52,859 nt of DNA from NCBI GenBank assembly GCA_016937995.1, contig JAFGVM010000029.1:1-52859 (forward strand), given 5' to 3'. The notes beneath the pieces were generated by a model. It ran no database searches and was not told the origin of the DNA. It saw only the letters and a program-made list of their open reading frames with translations. Positions 5,763 to 34,756 of this stretch are shown piece by piece (positions within the stretch are counted from its first letter, which is position 1; each line of letters starts with the position of its first letter). Source of the DNA: Candidatus Delongbacteria bacterium (GTDB taxonomy: Bacteria > UBA4055). A program made the position numbers and the translations under genes.

Positions 5763-5787
5763 TGTTAGGTACGAGCTAAAATAATCT

Positions 5788-9109: not shown

Positions 9110-12100
9110 ATGAACATAAATTTCTCAAAAATATTCTTCAACAATGACAGCTCGATCAAGCAGCCTGAAGTAATAGCTTCATCTATCCTACTGATAAAGG
9201 ATATGAATCAGAGTTACAGCATAAAATTATCAATGATAAAATGGCTCAAAGATAATGGACAAACTACCACATTTTTACCTGAAATAAGATCTATCTATGA
9301 CCATGCAAGAGAGATCACCGGAACAGGAGCCGGAAAAGAGATCAGGGAAGAGGATTTTATTGTTCTGATGGAAAGATGCAGTATAGAAGGTCTGCCGGAT
9401 AAATTCAGACATAAACATTACAGGAATTACAAAAAGAATCTGCTCAGATTCATAGACCAGAGAGGTTTGATCTGTGATAAAGCTATAGAAGGCAGTGTAA
9501 CTCAGGATCTCTTAAAGAATGGTCTGAATGATGAAATAATAAAAAAAATAGTGCAATATATAAATTCATACGATCTTTATTTTAAAGGTCAGATATTCGA
9601 CAAAGCAATAAAAGTTGCTGATGAGCCTGAGAATGTGTTCTCACTGAATTTCTTTAAGGAAGAAATATCCTGCAAAGAAAGAAAATTCCTAAGCGAGCTT
9701 AAAGCTGAGAAGATCGATCTTATCAGTGAAGGAAAGTATTCGTCTCTGGCAAATATATTCAAGGAAGGAAAAAAGATAGAAGTAAAATTTGAAGATATAG
9801 ACCTGTATATATCTGAAAGTCCGTTGAACGAAGCAAAGAAGATAAAGCATCTAATCCTCGACCAAATTACCAAATCAGGTTACAGTCCTGATGATTTTAC
9901 TATAGTCTGCAGTGATAAGGACCTTTATACGACACTGAACAATGTCTTTCTTTCCTTAAAAATACCTGTGTATTCATCATACTCTTATAACGGGAATGAT
10001 ATATCAACCGATATCCTCAGACTGCTGATCGCTGCTTTGGATGGTGATACTCAGAAGATAATGAACTTTTACAATCTGCATCTGGCTGAAGAACCTATAG
10101 CATTTCCTGATGTTTCCCAATATGACCTCAAAACTCTATATGGAAAGCTGATACCAAGAAAAAAGGATGATCCGGAACAGTCGGACCTTAAGCTGAATTT
10201 CAAGACCATCAGAGACAGTGGTATTCGAAAAGATAAAGAAAAAAGAATAAGAGATTTTATAAAAACTATAGATATAACTGATGATGAACTCACTGTAAAG
10301 AACGGTCTCGACAGGCTTCATTTTAAACTAAAGAAGCTCAAAGAGATCTTAAATAAACAGCTTGATCTAGATCCTTACCAGTATGAGGATATTCTAAATA
10401 AGATATTCGGAGAAAAAATAATATTTTCAGAGCTGCTTGAGTATTTATATCTGATATCCTCCAAGTCTGCTAAAATATGTCCGAACAGAGAACAGAAAGG
10501 TGTCAGGATAAATATGATGAACGAACCGGTATCAGGCAGCAGGTTCCTTATATTTTCAGGACTGACACAGGAAAATTTTCTCAAAACCGGAAATTCTATA
10601 AAATTTCTGCAGAAAGAGAATTACCAGAAGTTCTATAACGGTATTTTCGGAATTCAACCCGATGATACACTGATAGAAAATTTCAGGATATTCACTTCAG
10701 GGGATATTGAAAATGTATCTTTCTTCATACCTCAGTGGGGTGATGAGTTCATTCCTTCGACAAGGCTGGATGAAATACTGTCACTGCATGATAAGGTCAT
10801 AGCTGATATAAAGATCCTGACCGATGAGACCGGGTACGGTTTTGAAAATGCAAAGGAGCTGAAGAACAGAGAATTCAATTACGGTATAAAAGATCTGCTC
10901 AGTGATAGATCTGTTCTTAAAGACATAGAGATAAACGAGGATAGATCAGTAGAGCAGAAAGAACAGTTCTCAATTACTTTCACAGGTGAAAATATTGAAA
11001 GTAACCTTTCATCTGCTTCCAGGATAGAGACCTTCATGAGCTGTTCTGCAAAGTTCGTTCATGAACTGAATCTGCAGTATAATGAGATCGAAAGTCAAAT
11101 GCCTTATACCAAGGGTAATTTCTTCCATGATATAACCGAGAAATTCATCAGATATTACAAAGGAAAAGAACTGATAGCCGAATCTGAATTTAATAAGTTA
11201 TTAGATGAATTTTCCTACAGAAATAACATCAGCAATACAATGCTGGACTATTTCTCAGAATACTATTTCGACTCCATTGATGAAAACCATGAACGCTACA
11301 GATCTGTATTCTCAGATCTAAAATCTAAGATCCAGACATCAGGTATTGATAAACATATGGATGACTACTATACCAACCAGATGAAGAATAATCCTTTCGG
11401 CAGTCATATGTACAACAAGCAGAAGTACGGAATAATAAATTTCATTGCAAGGCTGATACTGCAGATGGGACCAACTCCTGCTGAAGTTACAAAGAGTTTT
11501 GAAACAGAGGTCAAATTCTGCGATATGGTAGTTTCAACAGAACCTCTGATAAAAATAGCTGAAGGATATATTGACTTCATGTTCGTAGATATCAAAAATA
11601 GAGTTCAGATAGTCGATATAAAATCAACAAAGAAATTCAAAGATTTTGAAGAAGAGATAGAAAATTATCAGAAGGTTCAGATACTTTTATATAGAAAGGC
11701 AGTTCTAAAGCAGATGAACGGTACCGGAGGGGTGAATTTTAACGTTACTCCCGGGTGGAGAAATCCTGAATGCGGGATACTCAAAGATGACTACTTTTCA
11801 GCAAATAATGCTTCAGGTGAGATAAGCTCTTACTATCTTTCAAATGAATCACCGTATTTTTTAAGCTGTGATGAAGAAGATTACTCAAAATTCCTCACTG
11901 TCCTTAAAAACAGGCTGAATGATCATAAGAAATTTACTTCGATAGTAAATTCGAACTGTGAATACTGTTCTTTAGGACCATCATGCCCGGATAACGAGCA
12001 GTCAAAATTTGAAAAAATACCTGGTTTTGTACCTGAGTGCAAAGAAAGTCTGCCTATACCGGAATTCCAGCATATAAGTTCAGGTCCGGACGGTAATTCC

Positions 12101-15100
12101 AGAGACTACATTCTTTTCTCAGGAGAAAAGGATAAGGCGATCAGAACTACAGACAGTGTAATAATCTCTGCAGGTGCAGGTGCAGGTAAAACAGAAGTTC
12201 TCTCATCAAAATATATACATCTATTGGTCAATGAAACTGAAACGGACATAGAAAATATCGTCTGTATAACTTTTACAAAGAAAGCTGCAGGTGAGATGCA
12301 GAACAGGATATACAGAAAGCTTGACGAAGTGATCCAGAGCAGACTGTTCGTAGCAGCTGACCTTGGAGATAATATTCAAAATTATATTCTTAGCGACAGG
12401 CAGATAGAAAAACTAAAAAAATGTAAGAATAAATTCTTTGATAAAAATCTGATATCCACATTCCATTCATTCTGCAACGATCTTATTTCAAGGTACGGAT
12501 TTTCAAGCAAGAACCTTGAAAACTATGATATCGACCAGAGCATCTCAGAAGATCATCAGGTAAAAAAAGAAATAGTAACTTACCTGAAAGAACTATATCA
12601 GAATAAATTCTCGAACGTTTTGGATAATAACGGAATATTCATAAAATGGCTAGACTCGAGACATCTTATGTACGCAGGTGATAATGAGGGTGGGTTCATA
12701 CCTGATCTTATAGGACTTTATTCAGAGATGAAGTTGAGCGGGAAAGAGCTTGTAATGTCAGAATGGGAAAAACCGGTCGATAAATATGTAAAAGAAATAG
12801 AGTTATTATATCAGAGCTCTGCTGCAGAATATCTTCAAATGAAAGAAGAAGCAATAGAACTTCTTGATTCTGAAATTAACAGAACAGATGATCAGGACGA
12901 GAAGGAGAAATTAAACGGTTTAAGGGAAAAGATCTCCAATGATGAAAAGTTCACATTCAAATCAATACTTTCAAAGAAAAAATATCCTGATGAGATATTG
13001 AGGGATCACCTTATCGAATTTGAAGCTTCAAAGCAGTTCAAATTCATAAATGGTAGCGGTATAGATCTTGATCTGAACGATGATGAATGGAATATCAAGA
13101 ATGCTTTACTGAACATTATTATCTCACTGGATGAGCATATAAGTGAATATAAAAGAATGAAAGGTGTTCTGGAACAGAACGATCTTCATCTGATGCTTCT
13201 GGAAATGATGAAGGATAAAGATCTAAGATCGGAACTGCAAAAGCAGTTCAGGCATCTTCTAGTTGATGAATTCCAGGATACGAACTGGCTGCAGGATAAG
13301 ATAATCGAAGAGTTAAGTTCAGAGAAGAATAAACTTTTTATCGTAGGGGATAAAAAACAGTCGATCTACCGATTCCAGCAGTGTGATGTACAGATCTATG
13401 AAAAATATCTGAGCAGATATAAAAAACTTACTTTCACTGATAATTTCAGATCATCGGCCGATATAGTCAATTTCAACAATGAAATATTCTCTGAGGATTC
13501 AGAAAATGTCAGAGATGAATATAAAATAATAGAAAAAGATGAGAGATCTGTAGCAAAAAAGAAGAATATTCATAAAACTCCTGTTAACTTTTTCAATATA
13601 ATCTGCCCTAAAGATATCAGGAAAGAGGACGGAGAGAAATTCAGTATCAATGAAAAGAATAAGCTGATAAAAATGTCTGAAGCTACATTCGTAGCTGAAA
13701 CTATACAGAAGAATTGTAAGGTGGATGAAGACTACGGTAAATGGGCTATTCTGATAAGAAAATACACCCACATAGGATTTATCACTGAAGCATTCAGGAA
13801 AACAGGAATTCCATATTCATTGATATTAAAGAGAGATCTTTTCAAGCTGAACGAAGTAATTGAATTTATCAATATACTCAAAGTAGGACTTGGAGTTTTA
13901 AAACCATCTGAGATAGAATTTATTGAAAACTCGGAAGAAATCTTCGATCCTCAGCTTAGATCGGATGATATTTTATCAATGATATTCAGAATATACTACA
14001 GCAGTGCATACAGAAAATATATCAGTGGCTTTGAGGATGCTGAAACAAAGCTGAGTAATATTGATACACTAATACTGAATCTTGCTGAAATGTTGTCCGA
14101 TTCAGAGAGTAATAAAGAGAAATTCCTTACTGATCTTGATATCAGCATAAGTAATAATTCTGCAGGAGTGGTGGTACATAACCCAAAAGCAGTGACCATC
14201 ATGACAGTCCATAGTGCAAAAGGACTTGAATTTGATAATCTTATCCTCGCAAATGTTGATGAATATGATAATAATATGACCGGGCTTTTCAATTATCTCA
14301 ATCAGTGGAAAAATGGAGATAATTTCATCGATTTTTCAATGTCAGGATATAAAACCGTCACAGGTGAATCAAAAGGTAATTTCTTTCTGAACGAATATAT
14401 AAAAGATATAAATAAAGAATTCTCCACAAGAGAAACAGCAAATCTGCTTTATGTTGCTCTGACCAGAGCTAAAAAGTCTCTGTCAGTGATCATTTCCACA
14501 AAAGAGAAAGAAAATGATAATAACAGTGGAAGCTCTCTTGTCTGGGCAAAGTATCTCAGGGAATACGGAGAGAACATCAATGGTCAGATACCGGGGTTTA
14601 AATTTCATCAGCTTCCTGTCACAGAATTCGACCTGAGCTCTTTCACACAGACAACTGAAAATGATAAGATACAGCACAATATTTCAATTGAGAAAGTACA
14701 TGATGTCTCTTTCAGTTTTGATAATGACCTTGATTCAGCGACCGGGATCGCCCATAAGGATGATGAACCAAAGCATGAAACAGGCAGTACATTAGCACTC
14801 GATACAGGAAATTTTATACACCTGTTTTTAAGCAAAGAGATAGATAATATATTTGATGACGGTTATGAACTGAATAAAAAACTGAATGAGTTCAAAAGAA
14901 TGAATTCCGATTCACAGGGAATAAATCTGAAAACCGCAGAGAATATGTTGAAAAACGTGATAACTGATTCAAATTTCAGATCATTATTAAAGAATGGAAA
15001 AATCCTCTGTGAAAAGAATGTCGTTCATATAACTGAAGATAGACAGACTCAGGGATATATTGACCTACTAATCCTGAATGATGATAAAGTTATCGTACTT

Positions 15101-15268
15101 GATTATAAAACCTATCTATACAATTTTCCTGAGGAAGAACTAATCAGCAAGTACAGAAAGCAGGTGGAAATATATGCGGATGCTATAAATGATATCTATC
15201 CGGGTAAAACAGTTGAAAAATATTTATATTTCATAGGAAAAGAGAAGGCGGAATTGAATAGAGTGTAG
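9110..15268 (+). CDS. Single-chain AddB-AddA-like helicase-nuclease
   Basis: The 2052-residue protein joins the two subunits of an AddAB-type double-strand-break repair enzyme. The N-terminal half is AddB-like. It is a helicase-like region without Walker A, then a PD-(D/E)XK nuclease beginning SASRIETFMSC (C645), with IVDIKSTKKF and YQKVQILLYRKA. It closes with C950, C953 and C959, which with C645 would form the AddB-type [4Fe-4S] staple. The C-terminal half is an AddA/UvrD-type SF1A helicase: Walker A AGAGAGKTE (K1027), TFTKKAAGEM, LLVDEFQDT (about 1384), GDKKQSIYRFQ, TVHSAKGLEFD (about 1700), LLYVALTRAKK (about 1780), and a terminal nuclease with YIDLLIL and VLDYKTY (about 1983-2001). All key motifs of both halves are present, so it should be active. 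GGAG lies 6 bases before the ATG. It stands alone, downstream of the restriction island. It could be housekeeping recombination or defence. Confidence 0.9.
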   Translation: MNINFSKIFFNNDSSIKQPEVIASSILLIKDMNQSYSIKLSMIKWLKDNGQTTTFLPEIRSIYDHAREITGTGAGKEIREEDFIVLMERCSIEGLPDKFRHKHYRNYKKNLLRFIDQRGLICDKAIEGSVTQDLLKNGLNDEIIKKIVQYINSYDLYFKGQIFDKAIKVADEPENVFSLNFFKEEISCKERKFLSELKAEKIDLISEGKYSSLANIFKEGKKIEVKFEDIDLYISESPLNEAKKIKHLILDQITKSGYSPDDFTIVCSDKDLYTTLNNVFLSLKIPVYSSYSYNGNDISTDILRLLIAALDGDTQKIMNFYNLHLAEEPIAFPDVSQYDLKTLYGKLIPRKKDDPEQSDLKLNFKTIRDSGIRKDKEKRIRDFIKTIDITDDELTVKNGLDRLHFKLKKLKEILNKQLDLDPYQYEDILNKIFGEKIIFSELLEYLYLISSKSAKICPNREQKGVRINMMNEPVSGSRFLIFSGLTQENFLKTGNSIKFLQKENYQKFYNGIFGIQPDDTLIENFRIFTSGDIENVSFFIPQWGDEFIPSTRLDEILSLHDKVIADIKILTDETGYGFENAKELKNREFNYGIKDLLSDRSVLKDIEINEDRSVEQKEQFSITFTGENIESNLSSASRIETFMSCSAKFVHELNLQYNEIESQMPYTKGNFFHDITEKFIRYYKGKELIAESEFNKLLDEFSYRNNISNTMLDYFSEYYFDSIDENHERYRSVFSDLKSKIQTSGIDKHMDDYYTNQMKNNPFGSHMYNKQKYGIINFIARLILQMGPTPAEVTKSFETEVKFCDMVVSTEPLIKIAEGYIDFMFVDIKNRVQIVDIKSTKKFKDFEEEIENYQKVQILLYRKAVLKQMNGTGGVNFNVTPGWRNPECGILKDDYFSANNASGEISSYYLSNESPYFLSCDEEDYSKFLTVLKNRLNDHKKFTSIVNSNCEYCSLGPSCPDNEQSKFEKIPGFVPECKESLPIPEFQHISSGPDGNSRDYILFSGEKDKAIRTTDSVIISAGAGAGKTEVLSSKYIHLLVNETETDIENIVCITFTKKAAGEMQNRIYRKLDEVIQSRLFVAADLGDNIQNYILSDRQIEKLKKCKNKFFDKNLISTFHSFCNDLISRYGFSSKNLENYDIDQSISEDHQVKKEIVTYLKELYQNKFSNVLDNNGIFIKWLDSRHLMYAGDNEGGFIPDLIGLYSEMKLSGKELVMSEWEKPVDKYVKEIELLYQSSAAEYLQMKEEAIELLDSEINRTDDQDEKEKLNGLREKISNDEKFTFKSILSKKKYPDEILRDHLIEFEASKQFKFINGSGIDLDLNDDEWNIKNALLNIIISLDEHISEYKRMKGVLEQNDLHLMLLEMMKDKDLRSELQKQFRHLLVDEFQDTNWLQDKIIEELSSEKNKLFIVGDKKQSIYRFQQCDVQIYEKYLSRYKKLTFTDNFRSSADIVNFNNEIFSEDSENVRDEYKIIEKDERSVAKKKNIHKTPVNFFNIICPKDIRKEDGEKFSINEKNKLIKMSEATFVAETIQKNCKVDEDYGKWAILIRKYTHIGFITEAFRKTGIPYSLILKRDLFKLNEVIEFINILKVGLGVLKPSEIEFIENSEEIFDPQLRSDDILSMIFRIYYSSAYRKYISGFEDAETKLSNIDTLILNLAEMLSDSESNKEKFLTDLDISISNNSAGVVVHNPKAVTIMTVHSAKGLEFDNLILANVDEYDNNMTGLFNYLNQWKNGDNFIDFSMSGYKTVTGESKGNFFLNEYIKDINKEFSTRETANLLYVALTRAKKSLSVIISTKEKENDNNSGSSLVWAKYLREYGENINGQIPGFKFHQLPVTEFDLSSFTQTTENDKIQHNISIEKVHDVSFSFDNDLDSATGIAHKDDEPKHETGSTLALDTGNFIHLFLSKEIDNIFDDGYELNKKLNEFKRMNSDSQGINLKTAENMLKNVITDSNFRSLLKNGKILCEKNVVHITEDRQTQGYIDLLILNDDKVIVLDYKTYLYNFPEEELISKYRKQVEIYADAINDIYPGKTVEKYLYFIGKEKAELNRV

Positions 15269-17845: not shown

Positions 17846-20236
17846 ATGGGTAAAAAAACAGGAGTTTATCTATGTCAGTGTGGAGGTAATATATCCAACA
17901 CAATAGATCTTGAAAAAGTACAAGAACATATCAGAAAGGAAAAAGGGGAAGATGTCGAAATTAAGATTTTTTCCCATATGTGTTCTGGAGCAGGTCAGAA
18001 ACTTATAAAAGATGATATAGAGTCAGGGGTATTTGACAGAGTTGTTGTTGCGGCTTGTTCTCCGCAATTTCATGAAAAGACCTTCAAAGCAGCAATGGTG
18101 AAAGGTGGTTTGAATCCGCATGTTCTGGAGATCGCGAATCTTAGAGAGCATTGTTCTTGGACTCATAAAACTGAACCTGAAATAGCTACAACTAAAGCTA
18201 TGGATGTTGTTGACGCCTCAATTGCAAAAGTTGAGTTGAACATTCCTTTGACGGAAAAAAAGATGCAAATGGGTGAAAGGGTTCTTATCATCGGTGGAGG
18301 TATAGCGGGTATTCAGACTGCTTTAGACCTTGCTGATACCGGTAAAGAGGTCACACTTGTCGAGAAACTGCCGACCATTGGTGGTAAAATGGCCGTTCTG
18401 ACAAAAACATTCCCTACAGAGGATTGTTCCGCATGTATAATCTCACCTAAAATGTCTGATGTTCAGGACCATCCGAATATTACATTATACACAAATTCAG
18501 AAATTGAGAACATCCAGGGACACAGACTGCATTTTAAAGCAACAATAAGAAATAAAGCAAGATTCATAAAACCGGAAATTAATATGGATGAATGTCTTGC
18601 CTGTGAACAATGTGTTCAGGCATGTCCTGTTTCAACCAGAAATTACTGGGAACAGGGAGTCATTGACAGGAAGGCAATTTATATTCCTGCAGCACTGGCA
18701 ATACCGTTCAGATATATTATCGATCCTGAGACCTGTCTTAATTTCAAGGAAGGTCAATCCTGCAGTATATGTGCTGATATATGTCCTCAAAAAGTTATAG
18801 CTTTCGAGCAGGAAGATGAGATAATTGAAAAAGTATTTGATACTATTGTCGTAGCGACCGGATTTGATATCTATGACGCTACTGAAAAAGCAGTATTTGG
18901 ATACGGTAAATATAAAAATGTGGTGACTGCTCTGGAAATGGAAAGGATAGTCGATCACATTAGCGAACCTGAACCGCCAAGAGAAGTCGGTAACAGAGTT
19001 GCTTTTATTCAGTGTGTAGGGTCAAGAGACGAACAGATAGGCAGAGAATACTGCTCAAGAGTATGTTGTATGTACTCAGTAAAATTAGCCTCTTTACTGA
19101 AAGCTGCTAAACCGGAAACAGATATTTATGTATTCTATACTGACCTGAGAGCTTTTGGTAAAGGTTTTGAAGAATATTATAAAAAAGCACAGAAAATGGG
19201 TGTAAAATTTGTACGTGGAAAACCTTCACATTTTACAGAGCATCCATTCACAAAGCAGGTGTCCATAACAGTTGAAGATACTTTATCAAGACAGGTGATC
19301 GAGAGTGACTTTGATCTTGTGGTTTTAGCTAACGGTATGGGTTTAAGTAAAGCAACCGATCCAATCGCAAATTTCCTGAAACTTGCGAAGAGTGAAGACG
19401 GATTTTTAAAGGAAGCTCATCCAAAATATAAACCGGTTGATACTCTTGTAGAGGGTGTATTTATAGCCGGAACTGCTCAGGGTCCAAAAGATATTCCTGA
19501 TACAGTGGCTCAGGCAAGTGCAGCCGCTTCGCGTGTGATGGTAACTTTAGCACAAAAAGAATTCAGTATCGATCCGATCCTCGCATTTGTGGATCAGGAT
19601 AAATGTGACGGATGTAAATTATGTATAGATAATTGTCCGAAAAATGCAATTTCAATGAATTCTAATGGAAAAGCTGAAGTTGAAGAAGCACTTTGTCTTG
19701 GTTGCGGATCATGTATTGCAAGTTGCCCTACTGAAGCTTTAGATCTTTACGCATATACTTCAGATCAAATTTATGCTTCAATCGATGCAATGCTCTCGAA
19801 CAAAAACGAAAACGAAAAAAGAATACTTGTATTCGCAGATAATAACTGTACTTACAGAGTTGCAGATGCTCTCGGAGTAAGAAAGATGAAGTACACCGGT
19901 GAAACCAGGATATTAAGAATGCCTAGCAGTGGCAGGGTAACACTAAATCTAATGATGTATGCTTTCAAAAAAGGTGCGGATGCTATTCTTGTCGGAGATT
20001 GTGAAGTGAACAATCTTAGAGTACCTTGGACCAGTGAAGTTGCAAAAAAGAATATTGAAATTGCAAAGGCAAGATTGATCGAATCAGGTGTTCCAGGGGA
20101 TAGAATATATTTTGAAGAGTTCAATGCAGGTGCTTTACAAAGATTTGTTGATACAGTAACTAAAATATCAGAATCAATAAAAGGATTCGAACCAATTACT
20201 TCTGAGGTAAAGGAGGGATTATGCCAAAGAAAATAA
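17846..20236 (+). CDS. hdrA: HdrA-like flavin iron-sulfur subunit with C-terminal MvhD-like domain
   Basis: HdrA is the FAD subunit of heterodisulfide-reductase complexes and the site of flavin-based electron bifurcation in methanogens. The 796 residues show an N-terminal cluster motif (YLCQCGGNI, C10/C12; MCSGAGQ, C46; C71; C103) and the Rossmann FAD motif IIGGGIAG (148-155). A ferredoxin pair follows (C250/253/256/260; C306/309/313), then a second pair C587/590/593/597 and C617/620/623/627. Residues about 658-780 match the MvhD/FlpD fold (AFKKGADAILVGDC) but keep only two of its four conserved cysteines (C668, C719), and the usual MCSGR reads MPSSGR. It is the first gene of hdrA-hdrC-hdrB-frdB-frdA and overlaps hdrC by 16 bases. 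Cytosolic. Confidence 0.92.
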   Translation: MGKKTGVYLCQCGGNISNTIDLEKVQEHIRKEKGEDVEIKIFSHMCSGAGQKLIKDDIESGVFDRVVVAACSPQFHEKTFKAAMVKGGLNPHVLEIANLREHCSWTHKTEPEIATTKAMDVVDASIAKVELNIPLTEKKMQMGERVLIIGGGIAGIQTALDLADTGKEVTLVEKLPTIGGKMAVLTKTFPTEDCSACIISPKMSDVQDHPNITLYTNSEIENIQGHRLHFKATIRNKARFIKPEINMDECLACEQCVQACPVSTRNYWEQGVIDRKAIYIPAALAIPFRYIIDPETCLNFKEGQSCSICADICPQKVIAFEQEDEIIEKVFDTIVVATGFDIYDATEKAVFGYGKYKNVVTALEMERIVDHISEPEPPREVGNRVAFIQCVGSRDEQIGREYCSRVCCMYSVKLASLLKAAKPETDIYVFYTDLRAFGKGFEEYYKKAQKMGVKFVRGKPSHFTEHPFTKQVSITVEDTLSRQVIESDFDLVVLANGMGLSKATDPIANFLKLAKSEDGFLKEAHPKYKPVDTLVEGVFIAGTAQGPKDIPDTVAQASAAASRVMVTLAQKEFSIDPILAFVDQDKCDGCKLCIDNCPKNAISMNSNGKAEVEEALCLGCGSCIASCPTEALDLYAYTSDQIYASIDAMLSNKNENEKRILVFADNNCTYRVADALGVRKMKYTGETRILRMPSSGRVTLNLMMYAFKKGADAILVGDCEVNNLRVPWTSEVAKKNIEIAKARLIESGVPGDRIYFEEFNAGALQRFVDTVTKISESIKGFEPITSEVKEGLCQRK

Positions 20237-20625
20237 AACTTACTGATAAAGGTGCTGAATTTTTAAAGCAGATCGAAAAATTGAGCGGTGAAACGATAAC
20301 AATGTGTGATCAGTGCGGAACATGCTCCGGTGGATGCCCGTTCGTTGAGGAAATGGATATAACACCATCCCAGATCATGAGAAAGACAATGCTCGGTCAG
20401 ATGGATGTACTTGATTCTAAAACAATGTGGATATGTGCATCATGCTTTACCTGTACAGTAAGATGTCCAAGGATACTTGATGTTTCTAAAGTATCAGAAG
20501 CTCTAAGACAGACTAAGCTGCGTCAGGCTATTGATAATATTGATATTAAGGATATTTCAAAAGAAGATGCTGAAGAATTGCCTTCTATCGCTGTAGTATC
20601 AGCTTTCAGAAAGTTCACCAGCTAA
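20221..20625 (+). CDS. hdrC: HdrC-like two-[4Fe-4S] electron-transfer subunit
   Basis: The 134-residue protein carries two ferredoxin motifs, C29/32/35/39 (CDQCGTCSGGCP) and C72/75/78/82 (CASCFTCTVRCP), and the flanking ILDVSKVSEALR that is typical of HdrC. In known complexes HdrC passes electrons from HdrA to HdrB. The start is well supported by AAGGAGG inside the end of hdrA. The C-terminal 50 residues lack cysteines. Loss of hdrE-type membrane genes nearby argues for a soluble complex. Confidence 0.92.
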   Translation: MPKKIKLTDKGAEFLKQIEKLSGETITMCDQCGTCSGGCPFVEEMDITPSQIMRKTMLGQMDVLDSKTMWICASCFTCTVRCPRILDVSKVSEALRQTKLRQAIDNIDIKDISKEDAEELPSIAVVSAFRKFTS

Positions 20626-20656
20626 TGTTATTCTAATAAATTCAGGATGAGAATAG

Positions 20657-21559
20657 ATGAAAGACAATATTAAAATACCTTATTTCCCTGGTTGTACACT
20701 AAAAACAACTGCAAAGAATTTTGAGATATCTGCAATTGAAGCAGGTAAAAAGATCGGAATTGAGATGGTCGAAATGCCTAAATGGAACTGTTGCGGAGTT
20801 GTATCATCTTTAACAAGTGATGACCTTATGAAGCATGTAGCTCCTGTGAGAAATTTTGTACATGCGGAAGAAATGTCTGAAAAGGGAACGGTAAATGACA
20901 GCAGAATGTTAATTCTTTGTTCAATGTGCTTCAACACAATGAAGAACACCAACAGAAGAGTAAAGAACAATGCTGAAGATATGAAATCGATCAATGATTT
21001 TATGTATCTTGAAAAAGATTATGAGGGAAAAGTTGAAGTGGTTCATTATTTTGAACTTCTTAAAGAGATCGGGTTTGATAAAATAGCTGAGAAAGTAACA
21101 AAATCGTTGAAAGATATGAAAATAGCTCCTTATTACGGATGTATGCTGCTCAGACCAAAGGAAATAGGAATAGATAACGCTGAAGCTCCGGCTATAATTG
21201 AGGATTTTATTACTTCTGTAGGTGCTGAACCGGTCAATTGGGATGCCAAAGGAAGATGTTGCGGAAGTTATCACACTGTTAACAATAAGGATATAGTCGT
21301 TAATCTGGCAAAAGGTATAATTGAGAATGCTCATAGATCAGGAGCAGATGCGATAATCACATCATGCCCGCTTTGTGCCTTCAATCTTGATAACAGACAA
21401 AAGCTTATCATGGAAAAAGATCCGAACTTCAAGACTATGCCGGTTTTTTATTTTACTCAGTTACTAGCATTAGCACTCGGACTGGAAGAGAAGTTCATTG
21501 GATTGGAAGATCATTACATTGATCCAAAGGAACTGTTGAAAAATAAAAATTTAATATAA
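20657..21559 (+). CDS. hdrB: HdrB-like catalytic subunit with two CCG domains
   Basis: HdrB carries the two non-cubane [4Fe-4S] clusters that cleave disulfides in methanogen heterodisulfide reductase. Both cysteine-rich CCG domains are complete here: C13, C45-C46, C88, C91 and C162, C201-C202, C237, C240. The 300-residue length is normal. It is 31 bases after hdrC and 15 before frdB. The organism is unlikely to make CoM-S-S-CoB, so the real substrate (another disulfide, or simply electron relay to the Frd subunits) is open. The intact ligands argue for chemistry and against a decayed relay. Confidence 0.92.
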   Translation: MKDNIKIPYFPGCTLKTTAKNFEISAIEAGKKIGIEMVEMPKWNCCGVVSSLTSDDLMKHVAPVRNFVHAEEMSEKGTVNDSRMLILCSMCFNTMKNTNRRVKNNAEDMKSINDFMYLEKDYEGKVEVVHYFELLKEIGFDKIAEKVTKSLKDMKIAPYYGCMLLRPKEIGIDNAEAPAIIEDFITSVGAEPVNWDAKGRCCGSYHTVNNKDIVVNLAKGIIENAHRSGADAIITSCPLCAFNLDNRQKLIMEKDPNFKTMPVFYFTQLLALALGLEEKFIGLEDHYIDPKELLKNKNLI

Positions 21560-21574
21560 TGTTTAGGAGTAATT

Positions 21575-22261
21575 ATGTCTGATGCTCAAAAAATGGTGAA
21601 AGTATATGTCATGGGTGAAGCATACATGGTACCGGAAGGTTCTACCATAATCGGAGCCTTTGAATATGCCGGATTCCAGTTGAAAAGAGGTGTAGGTTGC
21701 CGTGAAGGGTTCTGCGGGGCCTGTGCAACTGTTTACAGAGAAAAAGGTGATTATAAAATGAAAGGCGGACTTGGTTGCCAGACCGTTGTAACTGACGAAA
21801 TGTATATTGCACAGATACCTTTTGTACCTGCCGATAAACCAACGTACAAGATGGAAGAGATAACACCTGATGCAGGGACTTTCATGAATTTGTATCCGAG
21901 TGTTTTCAGATGTGTATCATGTAATACCTGTACCAAAGCATGTCCTCAGGACATTCAGGTAATGGATTACATTCAGGCGATCATTAGGGGAGATATTGCT
22001 GAGGCGGCAAGTTTATCATTTGACTGTATAAGATGCGGACTTTGTGCACTTCGATGTCCTGCAGAGATAGTTCAGTTCAATGCTGCTATCTTAGCCCAAA
22101 GACTTTATGGAAAATATATTGCACCTCAAAGTAAGGAACTTGAAGCAAGAGTAAACGAGATCATTGAAGGGAAGTATGAAAAAGAATTGAATGATCTTGT
22201 TGGAATGGCTAAACAGGAACTTATCGATAAATATTACAGTCGTGAAATAAAAATATCTTAG
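21575..22261 (+). CDS. Fumarate reductase/succinate dehydrogenase iron-sulfur subunit (TfrB/FrdB-like N-terminal part)
   Basis: The 228-residue protein has a plant-type [2Fe-2S] motif (C42, C47, C50, C68) and two full ferredoxin motifs, C113/116/119/123 and C151/154/157/161. Quinone-linked SdhB/FrdB have [2Fe-2S], [4Fe-4S] and [3Fe-4S] clusters; here the third site has all four cysteines, so a second [4Fe-4S] is expected. That pattern is closer to the N-terminal part of methanogen thiol:fumarate reductase TfrB, whose C-terminal CCG part is supplied here by the separate HdrB. It lies between hdrB and frdA with short gaps and good ribosome sites (TTAGGAG). Confidence 0.88.
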   Translation: MSDAQKMVKVYVMGEAYMVPEGSTIIGAFEYAGFQLKRGVGCREGFCGACATVYREKGDYKMKGGLGCQTVVTDEMYIAQIPFVPADKPTYKMEEITPDAGTFMNLYPSVFRCVSCNTCTKACPQDIQVMDYIQAIIRGDIAEAASLSFDCIRCGLCALRCPAEIVQFNAAILAQRLYGKYIAPQSKELEARVNEIIEGKYEKELNDLVGMAKQELIDKYYSREIKIS

Positions 22262-22270
22262 GGAGAGACC

Positions 22271-23941
22271 ATGTATCCAGAATATATGCAGGAATCTATT
22301 AAAAAAGTAGAATCAACCAGACCGGATAGATTGGAACTTGCCCGTAAACTTGGTAAGATGATCTACCCGGGGATGAACGAACAGGAGAGAGAAGTTGTTC
22401 TGAATGATAATCATCCTGATTACAAAGCAGATGCAAGAAGAGAAGTAAAAGTAGGACCTGATAAAGGTATGATCCTTACTACTGAAATTGCAGATATGCT
22501 AGAAACTTACTCGAGAATTGATATTGATAATTTTGATCTTTCAAAAGCTGATATCGAAACAGATGTTTTGATAATTGGAGCAGGTTCAGCGGGAATGTCT
22601 GCAGCTATAGTGGCTTCTGAGAAAGGTGCTGATGTTCTGTTGGCAACTAAATTACGTCTGGGAGATTCAAATTCGATGATGGCCCAGGGTGGAATTCAGG
22701 CAGCTGACCAGGCTGATGATTCACCTGCGATACATTATTTAGATGTTATAGGTGGAGGTCATTTTGATAACAAACCTGAACTTGTAAAAGCATTGGTAAA
22801 CGATGCTCCATTATCTATCAAATGGCTTGAAGATATGGGTGTAATGTTCGACAAGGACGATACAGGTAACATGAAAGTTAAAGCCGGCGGTGGTACAAGC
22901 AGGAACAGAATGCATTCTGCAAGAGATTATACCGGTGCAGCTATCTGTAAAGTTATAAGAGATGAGGTTTATAACAGAAAAGATAAGATAAAATATCTTG
23001 AGTATACCGCTATAGTTGAGCTTCTATTAAATGATAAGAAAGAAGTATCAGGTGCAGTGATGTACCATCTTGAGAATAAGCAGTTCTCAATTGTAAAAGC
23101 TAAATCAGTTATCGTTGCAACCGGTGGTTTCGGCAGACTTCATATCAGAGGTTTTGAGACAAGTAATCACTATGGTGCAACTGCTGACGGTATAGCATTT
23201 GCTTATAGAGCAGGTGCTCATTTATTATATATGGATTCTGTTCAATATCATCCAACTGGTGCGATTTTTCCTGAGCAGATCGTAGGTTTCCTTTGTACTG
23301 AGAAAATAAGAGGGATCGGTGCTCAACCAGTAAATAAGGACGGTGAGCTTTTCGTATATCCTTTAGAGCCTCGAGATGTTGAAGCATCAGCTTTCATTCG
23401 TGAATGCAATGCAGGTAGAGGTATTTCAACTCCTTCAGGATTAAAAGGTATATGGCTTGACACTCCACTTATCGATCAGATCAATGGAGAAGGTACGATT
23501 GAGAAGGAACTTCCTGCTATGCTTAGACAATATCAGAGATTCGGTATAGATATAAGAGAAGTACCAATGCTTGTTTATCCTACTCTTCATTATCAAAACG
23601 GTGGAATAGATATTAATGACAAGTGTGAAACTAATATTCCAGGTCTTTATGTAGCAGGTGAAGCTACAGGTGGAGTTCACGGCAGGAACAGACTTATGGG
23701 TAACTCACAGCTTGACATAATAGTATTCGGTAAGAGAGCCGGAATTTATGCTGCTGAGAGAGCTCAATCTATAGAAGATGCAGGAAATATGACTTTAGAT
23801 CATGTAATTTCTTACAATGAAGAAGTTGCTGAACTTGGAATTGAAAGAAATAAAGTTTCTCCTGTGATCCTTCCTGATTATATTCCTGATCACGTAAAAG
23901 CAAAACAACTGATCAATGAATATAACGGAACGTTGATATAA
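22271..23941 (+). CDS. Soluble fumarate reductase/succinate dehydrogenase flavoprotein subunit, atypical ends
   Basis: The 556-residue FAD protein interconverts fumarate and succinate. It has the FAD motif GAGSAG (103-108), HPTG, a TEKIRGIG arginine loop, LHYQNGGI and GRNRLMGNSQLD, so the dicarboxylate-binding His/Arg set is present. Three departures stand out. An extension of about 95 residues precedes the FAD fold. The flavinylation His of membrane SdhA/FrdA (RSHT) is replaced in GDSNSMMAQGG (131-141), so FAD should be non-covalent. The protein stops about 75 residues after the NS-LD motif, so the usual C-terminal helical domain is missing. No membrane anchor subunit is near. GGGAGAG precedes the ATG. 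It ends the hdr-frd cluster at a terminator. Confidence 0.88.
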   Translation: MYPEYMQESIKKVESTRPDRLELARKLGKMIYPGMNEQEREVVLNDNHPDYKADARREVKVGPDKGMILTTEIADMLETYSRIDIDNFDLSKADIETDVLIIGAGSAGMSAAIVASEKGADVLLATKLRLGDSNSMMAQGGIQAADQADDSPAIHYLDVIGGGHFDNKPELVKALVNDAPLSIKWLEDMGVMFDKDDTGNMKVKAGGGTSRNRMHSARDYTGAAICKVIRDEVYNRKDKIKYLEYTAIVELLLNDKKEVSGAVMYHLENKQFSIVKAKSVIVATGGFGRLHIRGFETSNHYGATADGIAFAYRAGAHLLYMDSVQYHPTGAIFPEQIVGFLCTEKIRGIGAQPVNKDGELFVYPLEPRDVEASAFIRECNAGRGISTPSGLKGIWLDTPLIDQINGEGTIEKELPAMLRQYQRFGIDIREVPMLVYPTLHYQNGGIDINDKCETNIPGLYVAGEATGGVHGRNRLMGNSQLDIIVFGKRAGIYAAERAQSIEDAGNMTLDHVISYNEEVAELGIERNKVSPVILPDYIPDHVKAKQLINEYNGTLI

Positions 23942-24077: not shown

Positions 24078-25247
24078 ATGAAAATACACGAATATCAGGC
24101 AAAAGAACTTTTTGCAAAATATGGAATCCCTATCCCTGCAGGTAAAATGATCCACAACTCAGAAGAGGCAATGGAAACAGCAAAAGAGATCGGTGGAGGG
24201 ATCTGGGCAGTGAAAGCTCAGATACATGCAGGCGGTAGAGGTAAAGGTGGTGGTGTTAAACTGGCAAGAACTATCACTGAAGTAAAAGAACATGCTGAAA
24301 GTATACTAGGTATGAACTTGATCACGGCTCAGACCGGAGCTGAAGGTCAGCTTGTAAGAAAGATATACATTGAAGGCGGAGTTGATATAGCAAAAGAATT
24401 CTATATGGGAATGGTTTTAGACAGAGCAACTGAAGTACCGGTAATGATGGTGTCTACAGAAGGTGGAATGGAGATAGAAAAAGTTGCTGCTGAAACACCT
24501 GAAAAGATCGTTAAGGTCAGTATTGATCCGCTCTATGGTCTTCAGGCTTTCCAGATAATGGAAATGGGTTATAAAATAGGATTACATAAAAAAGAAATGA
24601 AAGAATTTTATCAGTTCGCAAAAAAATTATACGAACTGTATATAGATATGGATGCAAGTATCGTTGAAATAAATCCGCTTGTACTTACCACAGACGATAA
24701 GTTCGTTGCCCTTGATGCAAAAATAGCTTTTGACGATAATGCTTTATACAGGCATCCAGCAATAGTGGAAATGAGAGATTTTTCAGAAGAGGAACCGGCA
24801 GAACTTGAAGCGGATAAATACGGATTGAGTTATGTGAAACTCGACGGGAATGTAGGATGCATGGTTAACGGTGCAGGACTCGCTATGTCTACAATGGATA
24901 TAATCAAGCATGAAGGCGGAAATCCGGCCAATTTTCTTGATGTTGGTGGTGCTGCAAGTGCGGTTACTGTAGCAAAAGGGTTTGAGATCATACTTAAAGA
25001 TCCTAATGTTAAAGCAATTTTTGTGAATATATTTGGAGGTATTGTCCGTTGTGACAGGATAGCTAATGGTATACTTGAAGCAACTAAAGTGACAAATGTA
25101 ACAGTTCCGATCATAGTCAGGCTTGATGGTACAAATTCAGATGAAGCTTCCGAAATATTGGAAAATGCGCACTTGAATAACATTATACCGGCTAAAGATC
25201 TTGCTGACGGTGCTAAACTGGCTGTTGAAGCAGCGGGAGGTAGATAG
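24078..25247 (+). CDS. sucC: Succinyl-CoA synthetase (ADP-forming) beta subunit
   Basis: SucC, together with SucD, interconverts succinyl-CoA and succinate with ATP formation. The 389 residues match the family: [18 protein letters not shown] at the start, the ATP-grasp segment [20 protein letters not shown] (the loop [13 protein letters not shown]), [28 protein letters not shown] and [15 protein letters not shown]. It is complete. It forms an operon with sucD, one base apart. The pathway context (Frd, fumarase, malic enzyme) fits a succinate/propionate-type or partial TCA route. Confidence 0.97.
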
Positions 25248-25248
25248 T

Positions 25249-26121
25249 ATGAGTATATTTGTAAATAAAGATTCTAAGGTCATTATTCAGGGTTTTACAG
25301 GAAAAGAAGGCACTTTCCATGCTCAGCAATGTATTGACTACGGAACGAATATCGTTGGAGGAGTTACTCCTGGTAAAGGCGGAGAGCATCATCTTGATAA
25401 AGATGTTTTCAACACAGTAAAGGATGCTGTTGCTCAAACAGGAGCTGATGTGTCGTTAATATTTGTCCCGCCTGCTTTCGGTGCGGATGCCATAATGGAA
25501 GCAGCAGATGCCGGAATAAAGATAATCGTATGCATTACAGAGGGAATTCCTGTAAAAGATATAATGCTGGCAAAAAAATTTGTAGAAAAAAAAGGTTCAA
25601 GGTTGATCGGTCCTAATTGTCCTGGAATAATCACAGCAGAAGAAGCCAAGATCGGGATCATGCCTGGATTTATCTTTAAGAAGGGAAATATAGGTGTTAT
25701 TTCAAAATCAGGAACTTTGACCTATGAAGCTGCTAATCAGGTCGTAAAAGCCGGCTACGGTGTATCAACTGCAATTGGTATCGGTGGCGATCCGATAATC
25801 GGAACTTCATTTATAGATGCTCTGAAAGAGTTTAAAGATGATCCTGAAACAGAAGCGGTCGTTCTCATAGGTGAGATCGGTGGTGATCTTGAAATACAAG
25901 CTGCAAACTATATCAAAGAACACTTCGATAAACCTGTGGTCGCTTTCATAGCCGGACAGACTGCTCCTAAAGGGAAGAGAATGGGTCATGCAGGAGCTAT
26001 TATTGCAGGAAGTGCAGGAACAGCTGCCGAAAAGATGGAAGCATTGAGAGATGCCGGTGTATTTGTGTCAGAATCACCTGCAATGATCGGGGAAAGTATA
26101 AAGAAAGTTATGGAAGGATAG
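25249..26121 (+). CDS. sucD: Succinyl-CoA synthetase alpha subunit
   Basis: The 290-residue protein starts at the ATG at 25249 behind GGGAGG; an upstream in-frame extension inside sucC is not needed. CoA-binding Rossmann motifs include [14 protein letters not shown] and GGVTPGKGG. The phosphohistidine is in the motif GHAGAIIAG (about 246-254), and NCPGI is present. SucD is phosphorylated on His and joins succinate to CoA together with SucC. Confidence 0.97.
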
Positions 26122-26231: not shown

Positions 26232-27077
26232 ATGAGAGAAATTCACGTTGACGAAATTATCTCCTCAGTAAAGAAACTCAGTATCAAAGCAAATTATTAT
26301 CTTGGACAGGATGTAATTGATAAGATGAAGTCTATGAAGGAGACTGAAGAATCAGAAACTGCGAAAGAAGTAATGGATATTCTTCTGCAGAATTATGAAA
26401 TGGCCGTAAAAGAACAAATGCCGATATGTCAGGATACAGGAGTTGCGGTTATTTTTGTAGAACTTGGTCAGGATGTTCATATCGTAGGCGGGGATTTTGT
26501 AGAATCTATCAATGAAGGTGTCAGACAGGGTTATAAAGACGGATTCCTGAGAAAATCAATGGTGGACGATCCTGTGATAGACAGAAAGAATACTACTGAC
26601 AATACTCCTGCAATAATTTACACTGATATTGTTCCCGGAGATAAGATCAGGATCACTTTAGCTCCGAAAGGTGGTGGAGCGGAGAATATGAGTGAAGTCA
26701 AGATGATGAAAGCTGCTGATGGTCTTGAAGGTGTTATTGATTTCGTAGTTGACAGGATAAAAAGATCAGGTGGAAATCCATGCCCACCAATAGTGGTTGG
26801 TGTTGGTCTTGGAGGAAATTTTGAGCAGAGTGCTTTATTAGCTAAAAAATCTTTACTCAGAAATTTGAACGATCCAAATCCTGATCCTAAATGGGATAAA
26901 GTAGAAAAGGATATTCTGGCAAAAATAAATGATCTTGGTATCGGTCCTCAGGGACTCGGTGGAAGAACTACAGCATTGGCAGTTCATATTTTGACTAAAC
27001 CTTGTCATATAGCTTCAATGCCTGTAGCAGTAAATGTTCAGTGTCACGCAGCAAGACATAAATCAATAACTTTATAA
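26232..27077 (+). CDS. Class I fumarate hydratase, alpha subunit (TtdA/FumA N-terminal type)
   Basis: It converts fumarate and malate reversibly with an oxygen-labile [4Fe-4S] cluster. The 281 residues carry the three cluster cysteines in PICQDTG (about 63-69), GGNPCPP (about 180-186) and VQCHAARH (about 269-276), plus GVGLGGNFEQSALLAKK. The tartrate dehydratase alpha subunit is the same fold, but gene context with malic enzyme and Frd favours fumarase. CGGAG precedes the ATG. The beta subunit follows after 12 bases. Confidence 0.93.
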   Translation: MREIHVDEIISSVKKLSIKANYYLGQDVIDKMKSMKETEESETAKEVMDILLQNYEMAVKEQMPICQDTGVAVIFVELGQDVHIVGGDFVESINEGVRQGYKDGFLRKSMVDDPVIDRKNTTDNTPAIIYTDIVPGDKIRITLAPKGGGAENMSEVKMMKAADGLEGVIDFVVDRIKRSGGNPCPPIVVGVGLGGNFEQSALLAKKSLLRNLNDPNPDPKWDKVEKDILAKINDLGIGPQGLGGRTTALAVHILTKPCHIASMPVAVNVQCHAARHKSITL

Positions 27078-27089
27078 TTTGGAGAAATT

Positions 27090-27644
27090 ATGGCAAAGAC
27101 AGTTTATCTAAATACACCGATAGATAGTAATGACCTGATAGATCTCCAGACAGGAGATAAAGTTTACATTACAGGTACGATATATACTGCAAGAGATGCA
27201 GCCCACAAAAGACTTGTTGCATTACTGGATGAAGGAAAAGAATTACCGTTCGATCCTAATGGTCAGGTAATTTATTATGTTGGTCCTGCACCTACTCCTC
27301 CCGGAAAAGCGATCGGTTCAGCAGGTCCTACGACAAGTTATAGAATGGATCCTTATGCCCCTGCTTTGCTTGATGCAGGTATAAAAGCTATGATCGGCAA
27401 AGGTCCGAGAGACGTCTCTGTTAAAGACTCAATGGTAAAGAATAAAGCGGTTTATCTTGCCGCAATAGGTGGAGCTGCGGTTGTCGTAGCAAATTCCATA
27501 ACTAAAGCTGAAATTATCGCCTATGAAGATCTTGGTGCTGAAGCAATTAGAAAACTTGAGGTAAAAGAGTTCCCGTGCATTGTAGCCAACGATGTCAATG
27601 GGAATGATATATATGATGAAGGAGTGAAGAAGTATCAAAGATAG
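27090..27644 (+). CDS. Class I fumarate hydratase, beta subunit (FumA C-terminal type)
   Basis: The 184-residue protein completes the two-subunit fumarase. Typical segments are LQTGDKVYITGTIYTARDAA, YVGPAPTPPGKAIGSAGPTT, YRMDPYAP, MIGKGPRDV and GGAAVVVANSI. The ribosome site GGAG is present. In many anaerobes the two halves are separate genes as here; in enterobacterial FumA/FumB they are fused. Confidence 0.93.
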   Translation: MAKTVYLNTPIDSNDLIDLQTGDKVYITGTIYTARDAAHKRLVALLDEGKELPFDPNGQVIYYVGPAPTPPGKAIGSAGPTTSYRMDPYAPALLDAGIKAMIGKGPRDVSVKDSMVKNKAVYLAAIGGAAVVVANSITKAEIIAYEDLGAEAIRKLEVKEFPCIVANDVNGNDIYDEGVKKYQR

Positions 27645-27710: not shown

Positions 27711-27744
27711 CTAAATTCTAATTTTAAATAAACGGAGAGTGAGT

Positions 27745-29199
27745 ATGGAAAAGATCAAAATGGATCTATCAAACCTGAACAATGCATTTCCTGATGATTT
27801 TACTGAAGAACAGATAGCTAAAGGTAAAACACTGTTCCTTAAGAAATTGTCAGAGTCAGCACATAAATTCTATGGCGGAAAGATACAAACTGCGCCAAAA
27901 GCAGGTGTTTTCGGTTTTAACTGGTTCAATGTCTGGTATACTCCGGGTGTTTCAAAGGTCTCTACAGAGATAAGAGATAACAACGATACTTCATTTGAAT
28001 TAAGCAACAGAGGTAATCTTGTAGGTGTTGTAAGTGATTCTACAAGAGTTCTGGGTGATGGCGACTGTACTCCTCCCGGAGGTCTTGGTGTAATGGAAGG
28101 AAAAGCTTTCCTAATGAAATATCTTGGTGGAGTTGATGCAGTAGCTCTTTGTGTTGACAGTAAAGATAAAGATGGTAAGAATGATCCGCAGAAAATAATA
28201 GATTTTGTTAAAATGTGTCAGCACAGCTTTGGTGCTATCAATCTGGAAGATATATCACAGCCGAATTGCTTCAAAGTTCTTGATGTTCTTAGAGAGGAAT
28301 GCGATATACCTGTTTGGCATGATGATGCTCAGGGAACTGCAAGTGTTACTCTGGCGGGTTTAATTAATGCTCTTAAGCTGGCTAAGAAAGATATTAAAGA
28401 TGTTAAGATCGTTCTTCTTGGAGCTGGAGCATCAAATACAACTATTGCGAGACTTATTATAACAGATGGAGCAGATCCCGGTAATTTGATAATGTTCGAC
28501 TCTAAAGGGTCTTTAAACAAGGGTAGAGCAGATATTGAAGCTGATAAGAGATTCTACAGAAAGTGGGAACTCTGTGAGACAACAAATAAAGATCAGGTTA
28601 AAACTATCGAAGAAGCTTTCGTAGGTGCTGATGTTCTTATCGCATTGTCAACTCCGGGTCCTGACACTGTCAAGAAGGAATGGATCGCAACTATGGCTGA
28701 AAAAGCTATTGTATTTACCTGTGCTAATCCTGTTCCTGAGATCTATCCCTATGCAGCTAAAGAAGCAGGTGCTTTCATAGTTGCTACAGGTAGGGGAGAC
28801 TTTCCTAATCAGGTTAATAATTCTATCGGTTTCCCAGGTATCTTAAAAGGTGCTTTGATGGTAAGAGCAAGAAAGATCACTGATAATATGGCAATTGCTG
28901 CTGCCCATTCACTTGCCGATTATGCTGAGAAACGTGGTATAGATCCTGAGAATATCGTTCCAACTATGGATGAAGCGACTGTATTCCCAGTTGAATCTGC
29001 TGATGTAGCTATGCAGGCGATCAAAGATGGCGTAGCAAGGATCAATATGACCTGGGATGAGGCTTTTGCTAAGGCTAAGGAAGATATTGATTATTCCAGA
29101 GGAATGACTAAAAATCTTATGGATAATGGTTTTATTGGAAAACCTGAAGATAAGATGCTTGAAGACGCTCTTCAATGGGCGATCAATGAGTTAAGATAA
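27745..29199 (+). CDS. Malic enzyme (malate dehydrogenase, decarboxylating)
   Basis: It oxidises malate to pyruvate and CO2 with NAD(P)+, or runs in reverse. The start is placed at the ATG 27745, because GGAG (27734-27737) is correctly spaced for it and is too close to the in-frame GTG at 27739. The 484 residues show WYTPGVSKV, the nucleotide-fold motif LLGAGASNTTIARL, HDDAQGTASV, SRPGPD-like STPGPD, CANPVPEI and GRGDFPNQVNNSIGFPGI. The protein is slightly longer than the short bacterial form (about 400). NAD versus NADP preference is not decided. It ends at a strong terminator. Confidence 0.93.
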   Translation: MEKIKMDLSNLNNAFPDDFTEEQIAKGKTLFLKKLSESAHKFYGGKIQTAPKAGVFGFNWFNVWYTPGVSKVSTEIRDNNDTSFELSNRGNLVGVVSDSTRVLGDGDCTPPGGLGVMEGKAFLMKYLGGVDAVALCVDSKDKDGKNDPQKIIDFVKMCQHSFGAINLEDISQPNCFKVLDVLREECDIPVWHDDAQGTASVTLAGLINALKLAKKDIKDVKIVLLGAGASNTTIARLIITDGADPGNLIMFDSKGSLNKGRADIEADKRFYRKWELCETTNKDQVKTIEEAFVGADVLIALSTPGPDTVKKEWIATMAEKAIVFTCANPVPEIYPYAAKEAGAFIVATGRGDFPNQVNNSIGFPGILKGALMVRARKITDNMAIAAAHSLADYAEKRGIDPENIVPTMDEATVFPVESADVAMQAIKDGVARINMTWDEAFAKAKEDIDYSRGMTKNLMDNGFIGKPEDKMLEDALQWAINELR

Positions 29200-34644: not shown

Positions 34645-34756
34645 TTTAATATTGTGATATTTATCTTGAATATTCTCATTTTTTTTAGTATGTTATCATA
34701 AGATATAAATAGTCTTACTTTAAATAATAGTTAAAACAATGTTTCAGGAGATCCAA

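Follow-up and report, generated by a model that had tools for sequence, protein, structure and literature searches.

How might fumarate be reduced in an organism that encodes an FrdB-like and an FrdA-like protein directly behind the three subunits of HdrABC, an electron-bifurcating module familiar from methanogenic archaea? The question is raised by a contig of a Candidatus Delongbacteria bacterium (GenBank assembly GCA_016937995.1, contig JAFGVM010000029.1), which is 52,859 nucleotides long and is called the window below. The host genome (G000) is 2.75 Mb in size and 97% complete. A preliminary description made from the sequence had placed five genes, for HdrA, HdrC, HdrB, an FrdB-like protein and an FrdA-like protein, on the + strand at 17846-23941. 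Its coordinates, strand and tight spacing (gaps of -16, 31, 15 and 9 bases) were exact, and Pfam and NCBIfam scans concurred on the families: HdrA with a C-terminal FlpD/MvhD domain, HdrC, HdrB with two CCG domains, a protein with one 2Fe-2S and two 4Fe-4S sites, and a FAD_binding_2 flavoprotein. These genes probably encode a soluble fumarate reductase coupled to HdrABC, as supported by gene content, cluster ligands, catalytic residues, linkage in other genomes and the absences that were tested. From these we infer a physical complex, its direction, its electron donor and electron bifurcation.

Cofactor sites and catalytic residues of the five proteins

HdrA (HdrA2 type; 17846..20236, + strand like the other four genes; 796 amino acids (aa)) was assigned from its open reading frame (ORF), Pfam/NCBIfam matches, a cysteine census and alignment to 5odc_A. 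The alignment to this HdrA of the Methanothermococcus complex extended over the length of the protein (648 bits), with the flavin adenine dinucleotide (FAD) and 4Fe-4S motifs lining up. HdrC (20221..20625, 134 aa), which overlaps hdrA, was assigned from its ORF, the same family scans and cysteine conservation, and all 8 cysteines of its two [4Fe-4S] sites are present and invariant among relatives. HdrB (20657..21559, 300 aa) was assigned from the family scans, cysteine conservation and its modelled fold, which matches HdrB of 7bkb, 5odc and 8rvy. It contains all 10 cysteines of two CCG (noncubane cluster) domains, and these are conserved wherever the sequence of a relative spans the domains, so the ligands are complete in both domains as the preliminary description had stated. 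The FAD domain and 4Fe-4S motifs of HdrA, the 8 cysteines of HdrC and the 10 of HdrB together are the features by which HdrABC is recognized. HdrB scored 154 bits against the SdhE family, for which the cut-off is 500, and is therefore not an SdhE-family anchor.

The FrdB-like iron-sulfur subunit (21575..22261, 228 aa), assigned from its ORF, Pfam and cysteine conservation, fell below every SdhB/FrdB cut-off (dhsB 26 bits, cut-off 88). It carries ligands for one [2Fe-2S] cluster (C42, C47, C50, C68) and two [4Fe-4S] clusters (C113-C123, C151-C161), and these 12 cysteines were invariant in 72/72 relatives; the canonical set would be [2Fe-2S]/[4Fe-4S]/[3Fe-4S]. This FrdB family was present in 39 of 386 sampled genomes, about a tenth. 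The FrdA-like flavoprotein (22271..23941, 556 aa) was assigned from its FAD_binding_2 match in Pfam, alignment of catalytic residues and a modelled fold, which matches FrdA/SdhA. It has a conserved N-terminal extension of about 95 aa and lacks the usual C-terminal helical domain. Its best NCBIfam match was TfrA (341 bits, under the cut-off of 718), and NadB was among the next best (283 bits). The catalytic residues H327, E344, R368, H440 and R474 are invariant or nearly so among relatives and line up with what we take to be H232, E245, R287, H355 and R390 of the E. coli enzyme. On both proteins these features correct the initial description.

The position of the histidine that binds FAD covalently is occupied by asparagine (N134) in the FrdA-like protein, and by asparagine in 71/71 relatives. 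E. coli enzymes without this histidine keep fumarate reduction and lose succinate oxidation. Because of this substitution, fumarate reduction is the more likely direction, and of the fumarate/succinate enzyme proposed at the outset the succinate-oxidizing half is the less likely one.

Linkage of hdr and frdBA genes in bacteria and archaea

Scanning genomes turned up at least 521 relatives, and 80 loci were retained from these; as the ranking was by similarity, closer relatives weigh more heavily in the sample. HdrA and HdrC were counted by similarity to the window proteins, and FrdB matches below about 80 bits, mostly probably unrelated ferredoxin-like proteins, were ignored. The kept loci came from Cloacimonadota, Neomarinimicrobiota, Armatimonadota, Aminicenantes, Eisenbacteria, Chloroflexi, Acetothermia, WOR-3, Desulfobacterota, Bathyarchaeota, Thermoplasmata and Theionarchaea, among others. 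Among the 51 loci with more than 4.5 kb of upstream sequence, HdrB was encoded in 44, HdrA in 43, HdrC in 41 and all three in 37; MvhA was found in 18 and Kor genes in 15-17. With HdrB near FrdB in 44/51 loci, the preliminary reading withstood the check for a neighborhood breaking between hdrB and frdB. The direct upstream neighbor of FrdB was HdrB in 34/72 loci, and in three of the loci (L073, L080, L084) the stop of hdrB and the start of frdB overlap by 4 bp.

The gene order HdrA-C-B-FrdB-A of the window varies among relatives: HdrC-B-A-MvhD-HycI-FrdB-A in Neomarinimicrobiota, Kor-HdrA-MvhD-G-A-HdrC-B-FrdB-A in Thermoplasmata, HdrC-B-FrdB-A-HdrA2 in Bathyarchaeota, and HdrC-B-FrdB-A alone in Theionarchaea. 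Where HdrA, MvhD or HycI lies between HdrB and FrdB, the Hdr genes are still in the cluster. In L040, HdrB was 43% identical to the window protein and FrdB 72%, indicating that FrdBA stays with Hdr genes of a different lineage. As the host genome holds a single HdrB-type gene, chance adjacency of HdrB and FrdB is, judged from gene content, not a serious option. Taken together, the neighborhoods indicate that the linkage of Hdr genes with FrdBA is real, conserved and functional in bacteria and archaea.

Some loci deviated in composition. In G047, a c-type cytochrome gene takes the place of Hdr, and in L035 (757-4609) FrdB-FrdA is preceded by a multi-CXXCH cytochrome and by a ferredoxin-like protein whose tail is hydrophobic, again in place of Hdr. 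The loci L098, L103 and L100 are compact hdrC-hdrB-frdB-frdA operons, perhaps a minimal form, with no hdrA nearby and flanks mostly on the opposite strand. In L088 (2-1321, +), HdrC and HdrB are joined in one ORF that looks real, with FrdBA genes downstream in the same metagenome-assembled genome (MAG). Candidate gene fusions in L051 (358 aa) and L145 (622 aa) were rejected as out-of-register open frames, and no true FrdB-HdrB fusion was found among the long open frames checked.

No membrane anchor of the two families tested

The cluster was initially described as a soluble FrdAB without cytochrome b, and this stands for the two anchor families tested, neither of which was found elsewhere in the host genome. 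By family search, Sdh_cyt (PF01127) was not found in 11 genomes of the Delongbacteria family, and b558-type SdhC (TIGR02046) was absent from the four cluster-bearing genomes (G000, G001, G003, G011); FrdC/FrdD-type anchors (PF02300, PF02313) were not searched. These four were the only ones among 13 genomes of the family to carry the Hdr-linked cluster. The b558-type SdhC was detected in G004 and G007, each time with a 640-aa FrdA encoded nearby on the contig, and both genomes are without the Hdr-linked cluster. A canonical SdhB (Fer2_3 over the cut-off) occurred only in G004 among the 11 family genomes searched. In this small sample, the Hdr-linked cluster and the b558-type SdhC system look mutually exclusive within the family.

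The fused MvhD domain and the electron donor

The FlpD/MvhD domain is fused to the C-terminus of HdrA at aa ~650-796 (Pfam match aa 660-780), and HdrA scored 867 bits against the HdrA2 model, under its cut-off of 1100. M. acetivorans HdrA2 retains the MvhD motif CX2CX25CX24CX4C (PMC5296606), and the [2Fe-2S] motif was used here as given in that paper. At the five cysteine columns the window protein has D, C, S, C and L, so 3/5 [2Fe-2S] ligands are lost and two cysteines are left. The motif was kept in the free MvhD proteins across the loci (n = 33; four of the five columns in 33/33, the fifth in 88%), and 11 of 12 HdrA-fused copies had lost three to five of its cysteines. Loci with a degenerate fused MvhD have no adjoining MvhA/MvhG, whereas many loci with free MvhD have them. 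Since, in addition, [NiFe] hydrogenase (PF00374) was absent from the four cluster-bearing Delongbacteria genomes, we infer that the Delongbacteria cluster is a hydrogenase-free subtype.

With 3/5 MvhD ligands missing and no [NiFe] hydrogenase in the genome, electrons probably come from NADH or ferredoxin. NADH has been suggested as a donor to HdrA2 homologues (PMC5296606). The F420 ligase (PF01996) was absent from the same four genomes, with controls positive, and a family search for DsrC was negative. The host genome encodes one [FeFe] hydrogenase and three Complex1_51K proteins (NADH-binding 51K-type), which points to an existing NADH/ferredoxin economy. The potentials are +33 mV for fumarate/succinate, -320 mV for NADH and near -420 mV for ferredoxin (PMC5861303); by our own arithmetic from these values, bifurcation from two NADH would be favorable by some 30-50 kJ/mol.

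Downstream genes and other contents of the window

The predicted operon runs on past FrdA to 29199, with five more + strand genes read from the sequence without a family scan: SucC (succinyl-CoA synthetase beta, 24078..25247), which is kept in family members, SucD (succinyl-CoA synthetase alpha, 25246..26121; ORF listed from 25201), fumarase alpha (FumA-like, 26232..27077), fumarase beta (FumB-like, 27090..27644) and, as the last gene of the conserved block, an NAD(P)-malic enzyme family protein (27739..29199). G003 and G011 carry the whole block from HdrA to the malic enzyme with its gene order unchanged, as does G001 up to the end of its contig. A promoter scan of the region performed at chance level, and from a terminator scan no operon boundary could be drawn. 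No Flx genes were seen within 15.8-29.2 kb of the window, and no genome-wide Flx search was made.

At the end of a contig, G011 carries FrdB-FrdA-SucC-SucD-FumA a second time (L037, G011:C173; L032, G011:C137), this FrdA being about 82% identical to that of the window. The fumarate operon is followed, some kilobases further on, by a formate-tetrahydrofolate ligase gene (34739-36427, +). Upstream, a single 2052-aa ORF (9110-15268, +) has a PD-(D/E)XK nuclease at aa 635-960 followed by a UvrD-type helicase at aa 1008-1796, AddB/AddA-like in one chain. At 1279-7128 (+) lies a possible defense locus, with an EVE + AAA_5 protein (1151 aa, McrB-like), then a RhuM-family protein (342 aa) and an ORF of 446 aa.

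Comparison with described systems

In the preliminary description, no characterized complex of this composition was known. No report of a purified complex, or of a purified member of the FrdB family, was found in the open-licence PMC literature; the gene combination and the idea of bifurcation have already been published (PMC6315080, PMC11636981, PMC8542988, PMC7282089). In PMC7282089, which cites the 2019 preprint of Koendjbiharie and van Kranenburg, the succinate operon of Pseudoclostridium thermosuccinogenes likewise joins HdrABC, fumarate reductase and fumarase, and ferredoxin-coupled fumarate reduction is proposed; unlike the window, it has an NADH-oxidizing Flx module beside Hdr, and the likeness is one of gene content. 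The cluster korABCD-tfrAB-flxABCD-hdrABC of the reductive tricarboxylic acid (rTCA) cycle in a tubeworm symbiont and Thioflavicoccus also has TfrAB-type genes amid hdrABC, for which a direct-transfer complex was proposed (PMC6315080, PMC11636981). It includes Flx and KorABCD, whereas the window has an HdrA2 fusion and neither Flx nor Kor, and it too resembles the window by gene content. The same core genes as in the window occur in the cluster of Ca. Celaenobacter (Cloacimonadota), which comprises thiol:fumarate reductase, 2-oxoglutarate oxidoreductase, Mvh, Hdr, fumarase and succinyl-CoA synthetase (PMC8542988) and, unlike the window's genome, a group 3c [NiFe] hydrogenase. Another Cloacimonadota locus (L041) has the window order HdrA2-HdrC-HdrB-FrdB-FrdA.

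Among characterized enzymes, M. acetivorans HdrA2B2C2 also has MvhD fused to HdrA, with HdrB and HdrC (PMC5296606), but there the MvhD motif is intact and a heterodisulfide is the acceptor; in the window the motif is broken. The absence of F420 ligase argues indirectly against an F420H2 donor. Class E SdhABE/8-methylmenaquinol:fumarate reductase is a further precedent (PMC2680327): its HdrB-like SdhE bears the 10-cysteine motif, and its SdhB, like the window FrdB by its 12-cysteine pattern, has a second [4Fe-4S] where [3Fe-4S] would be usual. SdhE is, however, a membrane anchor to the quinone pool, and the window HdrB is far under the SdhE cut-off and accompanied by HdrA and HdrC. The comparison with methanogen TfrAB drawn in the preliminary description was apt: TfrAB is soluble, its TfrA is the closest match to the window FrdA, and CCG domains supply its electron chain. 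These domains are fused in TfrB, whereas the window has a separate HdrB together with HdrA and HdrC, and its FrdB has no CCG and barely matches TfrB. The NADH fumarate reductase of Hydrogenobacter thermophilus is soluble and consists of FrdA, FrdB and three extra subunits. It was rejected as the same enzyme on the sizes of the extra subunits (59.5, 53.3 and 19.4 kDa in the A. aeolicus orthologues, PMC10052474, whose locus numbers are far apart), and it has no HdrABC set. New in the window, then, is an HdrA2 with a dead MvhD domain in an operon with no hydrogenase or Flx.

Proposed electron path and alternatives

In the HdrABC-coupled fumarate reductase that we favor, electrons would enter at HdrA, with its FAD and ferredoxin-type clusters, and pass through HdrC to the noncubane clusters of HdrB, acting as a relay and not as a heterodisulfide site. 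From there they would follow the [4Fe-4S]/[2Fe-2S] chain of FrdB to the FAD of FrdA, which would reduce fumarate to succinate, fumarate taking the place of CoM-S-S-CoB as the high-potential acceptor. HdrA would probably spend the potential drop on ferredoxin reduction, with NADH the likely donor. A more specific version, a self-contained soluble bifurcating enzyme without Flx, Mvh or Fdh input, in which NADH (or ferredoxin) feeds the dead-MvhD HdrA2 directly, HdrB is a pure relay and fumarate the exergonic acceptor, is possible and is put forward tentatively.

Several observations weigh against the coupled enzyme. The degenerate MvhD [2Fe-2S] site removes the usual electron entry. No HdrA is encoded near FrdBA in L098, L100 and L103, and L090, L106 and L116 have no Hdr genes at all there, suggesting that FrdBA can work with other partners. 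Because hdrB, frdB and frdA happen to share a reading frame, read-through pseudo-fusions with short artificial linkers were folded with AlphaFold, with only four paired rows in the alignment. FrdB-FrdA gave a predicted local distance difference test (pLDDT) score of 80.9 and a predicted template modelling (pTM) score of 0.82, unrelated domains being roughly estimated at about 0.66; HdrB-FrdB gave a pLDDT of 88.6 and a pTM of 0.66 against a rough ~0.57. In these models FrdB-FrdA is placed confidently, which counts for the coupled enzyme, and HdrB-FrdB weakly. The latter result would suit HdrABC as a separate ferredoxin/disulfide oxidoreductase and FrdAB as a separate soluble reductase that are metabolic neighbors serving one pathway, as would the FrdBA genes without adjoining HdrABC in Syntrophomonadaceae (L090, L114, L116) and in G047 with its multihaem cytochrome. 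The repeated adjacency, the 4-bp overlaps and the retention of FrdBA with different Hdr lineages speak against such independence, to which we assign a very small probability.

A TfrAB-like enzyme with a diffusible carrier, in which HdrB oxidizes or reduces a dithiol/disulfide, HdrA and HdrC regenerate it and thiols feed FrdAB, as CoM-SH and CoB-SH do in TfrAB, would account for the complete CCG sites of HdrB, for TfrA as the best match of FrdA and for the minimal operons without hdrA in Theionarchaea and a Desulfobacterales MAG. It is unlikely, since the genome lacks DsrC, the protein-disulfide partner usual in bacteria, and an external thiol is unneeded if the clusters make one chain. The same complex could also run in reverse, as a succinate dehydrogenase that would make NADH or H2 by confurcation from succinate and reduced ferredoxin, in succinate or propionate oxidation with the neighboring enzymes. 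SucCD, FrdAB, fumarase and malic enzyme make up a route from succinyl-CoA to pyruvate equally well, and TfrA was drawn in the oxidative direction in Culexarchaeia (PMC9723716). The invariant asparagine at the covalent-FAD position makes reversal quite improbable, and the Kor genes beside the cluster in other loci suit reductive use as well.

Close to negligible is the chance that the FrdA-like protein is an L-aspartate oxidase or an FAD-dependent reductase of another alkene. NadB was among the next best matches after TfrA, and it binds FAD non-covalently, as is predicted for the FrdA-like protein. Against this identity stand the operon shared with fumarase and succinyl-CoA synthetase, the conservation of the five fumarate-site residues, and a second full-length FAD_binding_2 protein elsewhere in the host genome and its relatives.

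Hdr-linked soluble fumarate reductases are thus probably widespread across bacterial and archaeal phyla, and the hydrogenase-free Delongbacteria form raises the question of where electrons enter an HdrA with a dead MvhD domain. If the coupled enzyme is real, many bacterial and archaeal anaerobes would conserve energy from fumarate reduction through reduced ferredoxin, without quinones or membranes, and the energetic scoring of rTCA and succinate-forming pathways would change.

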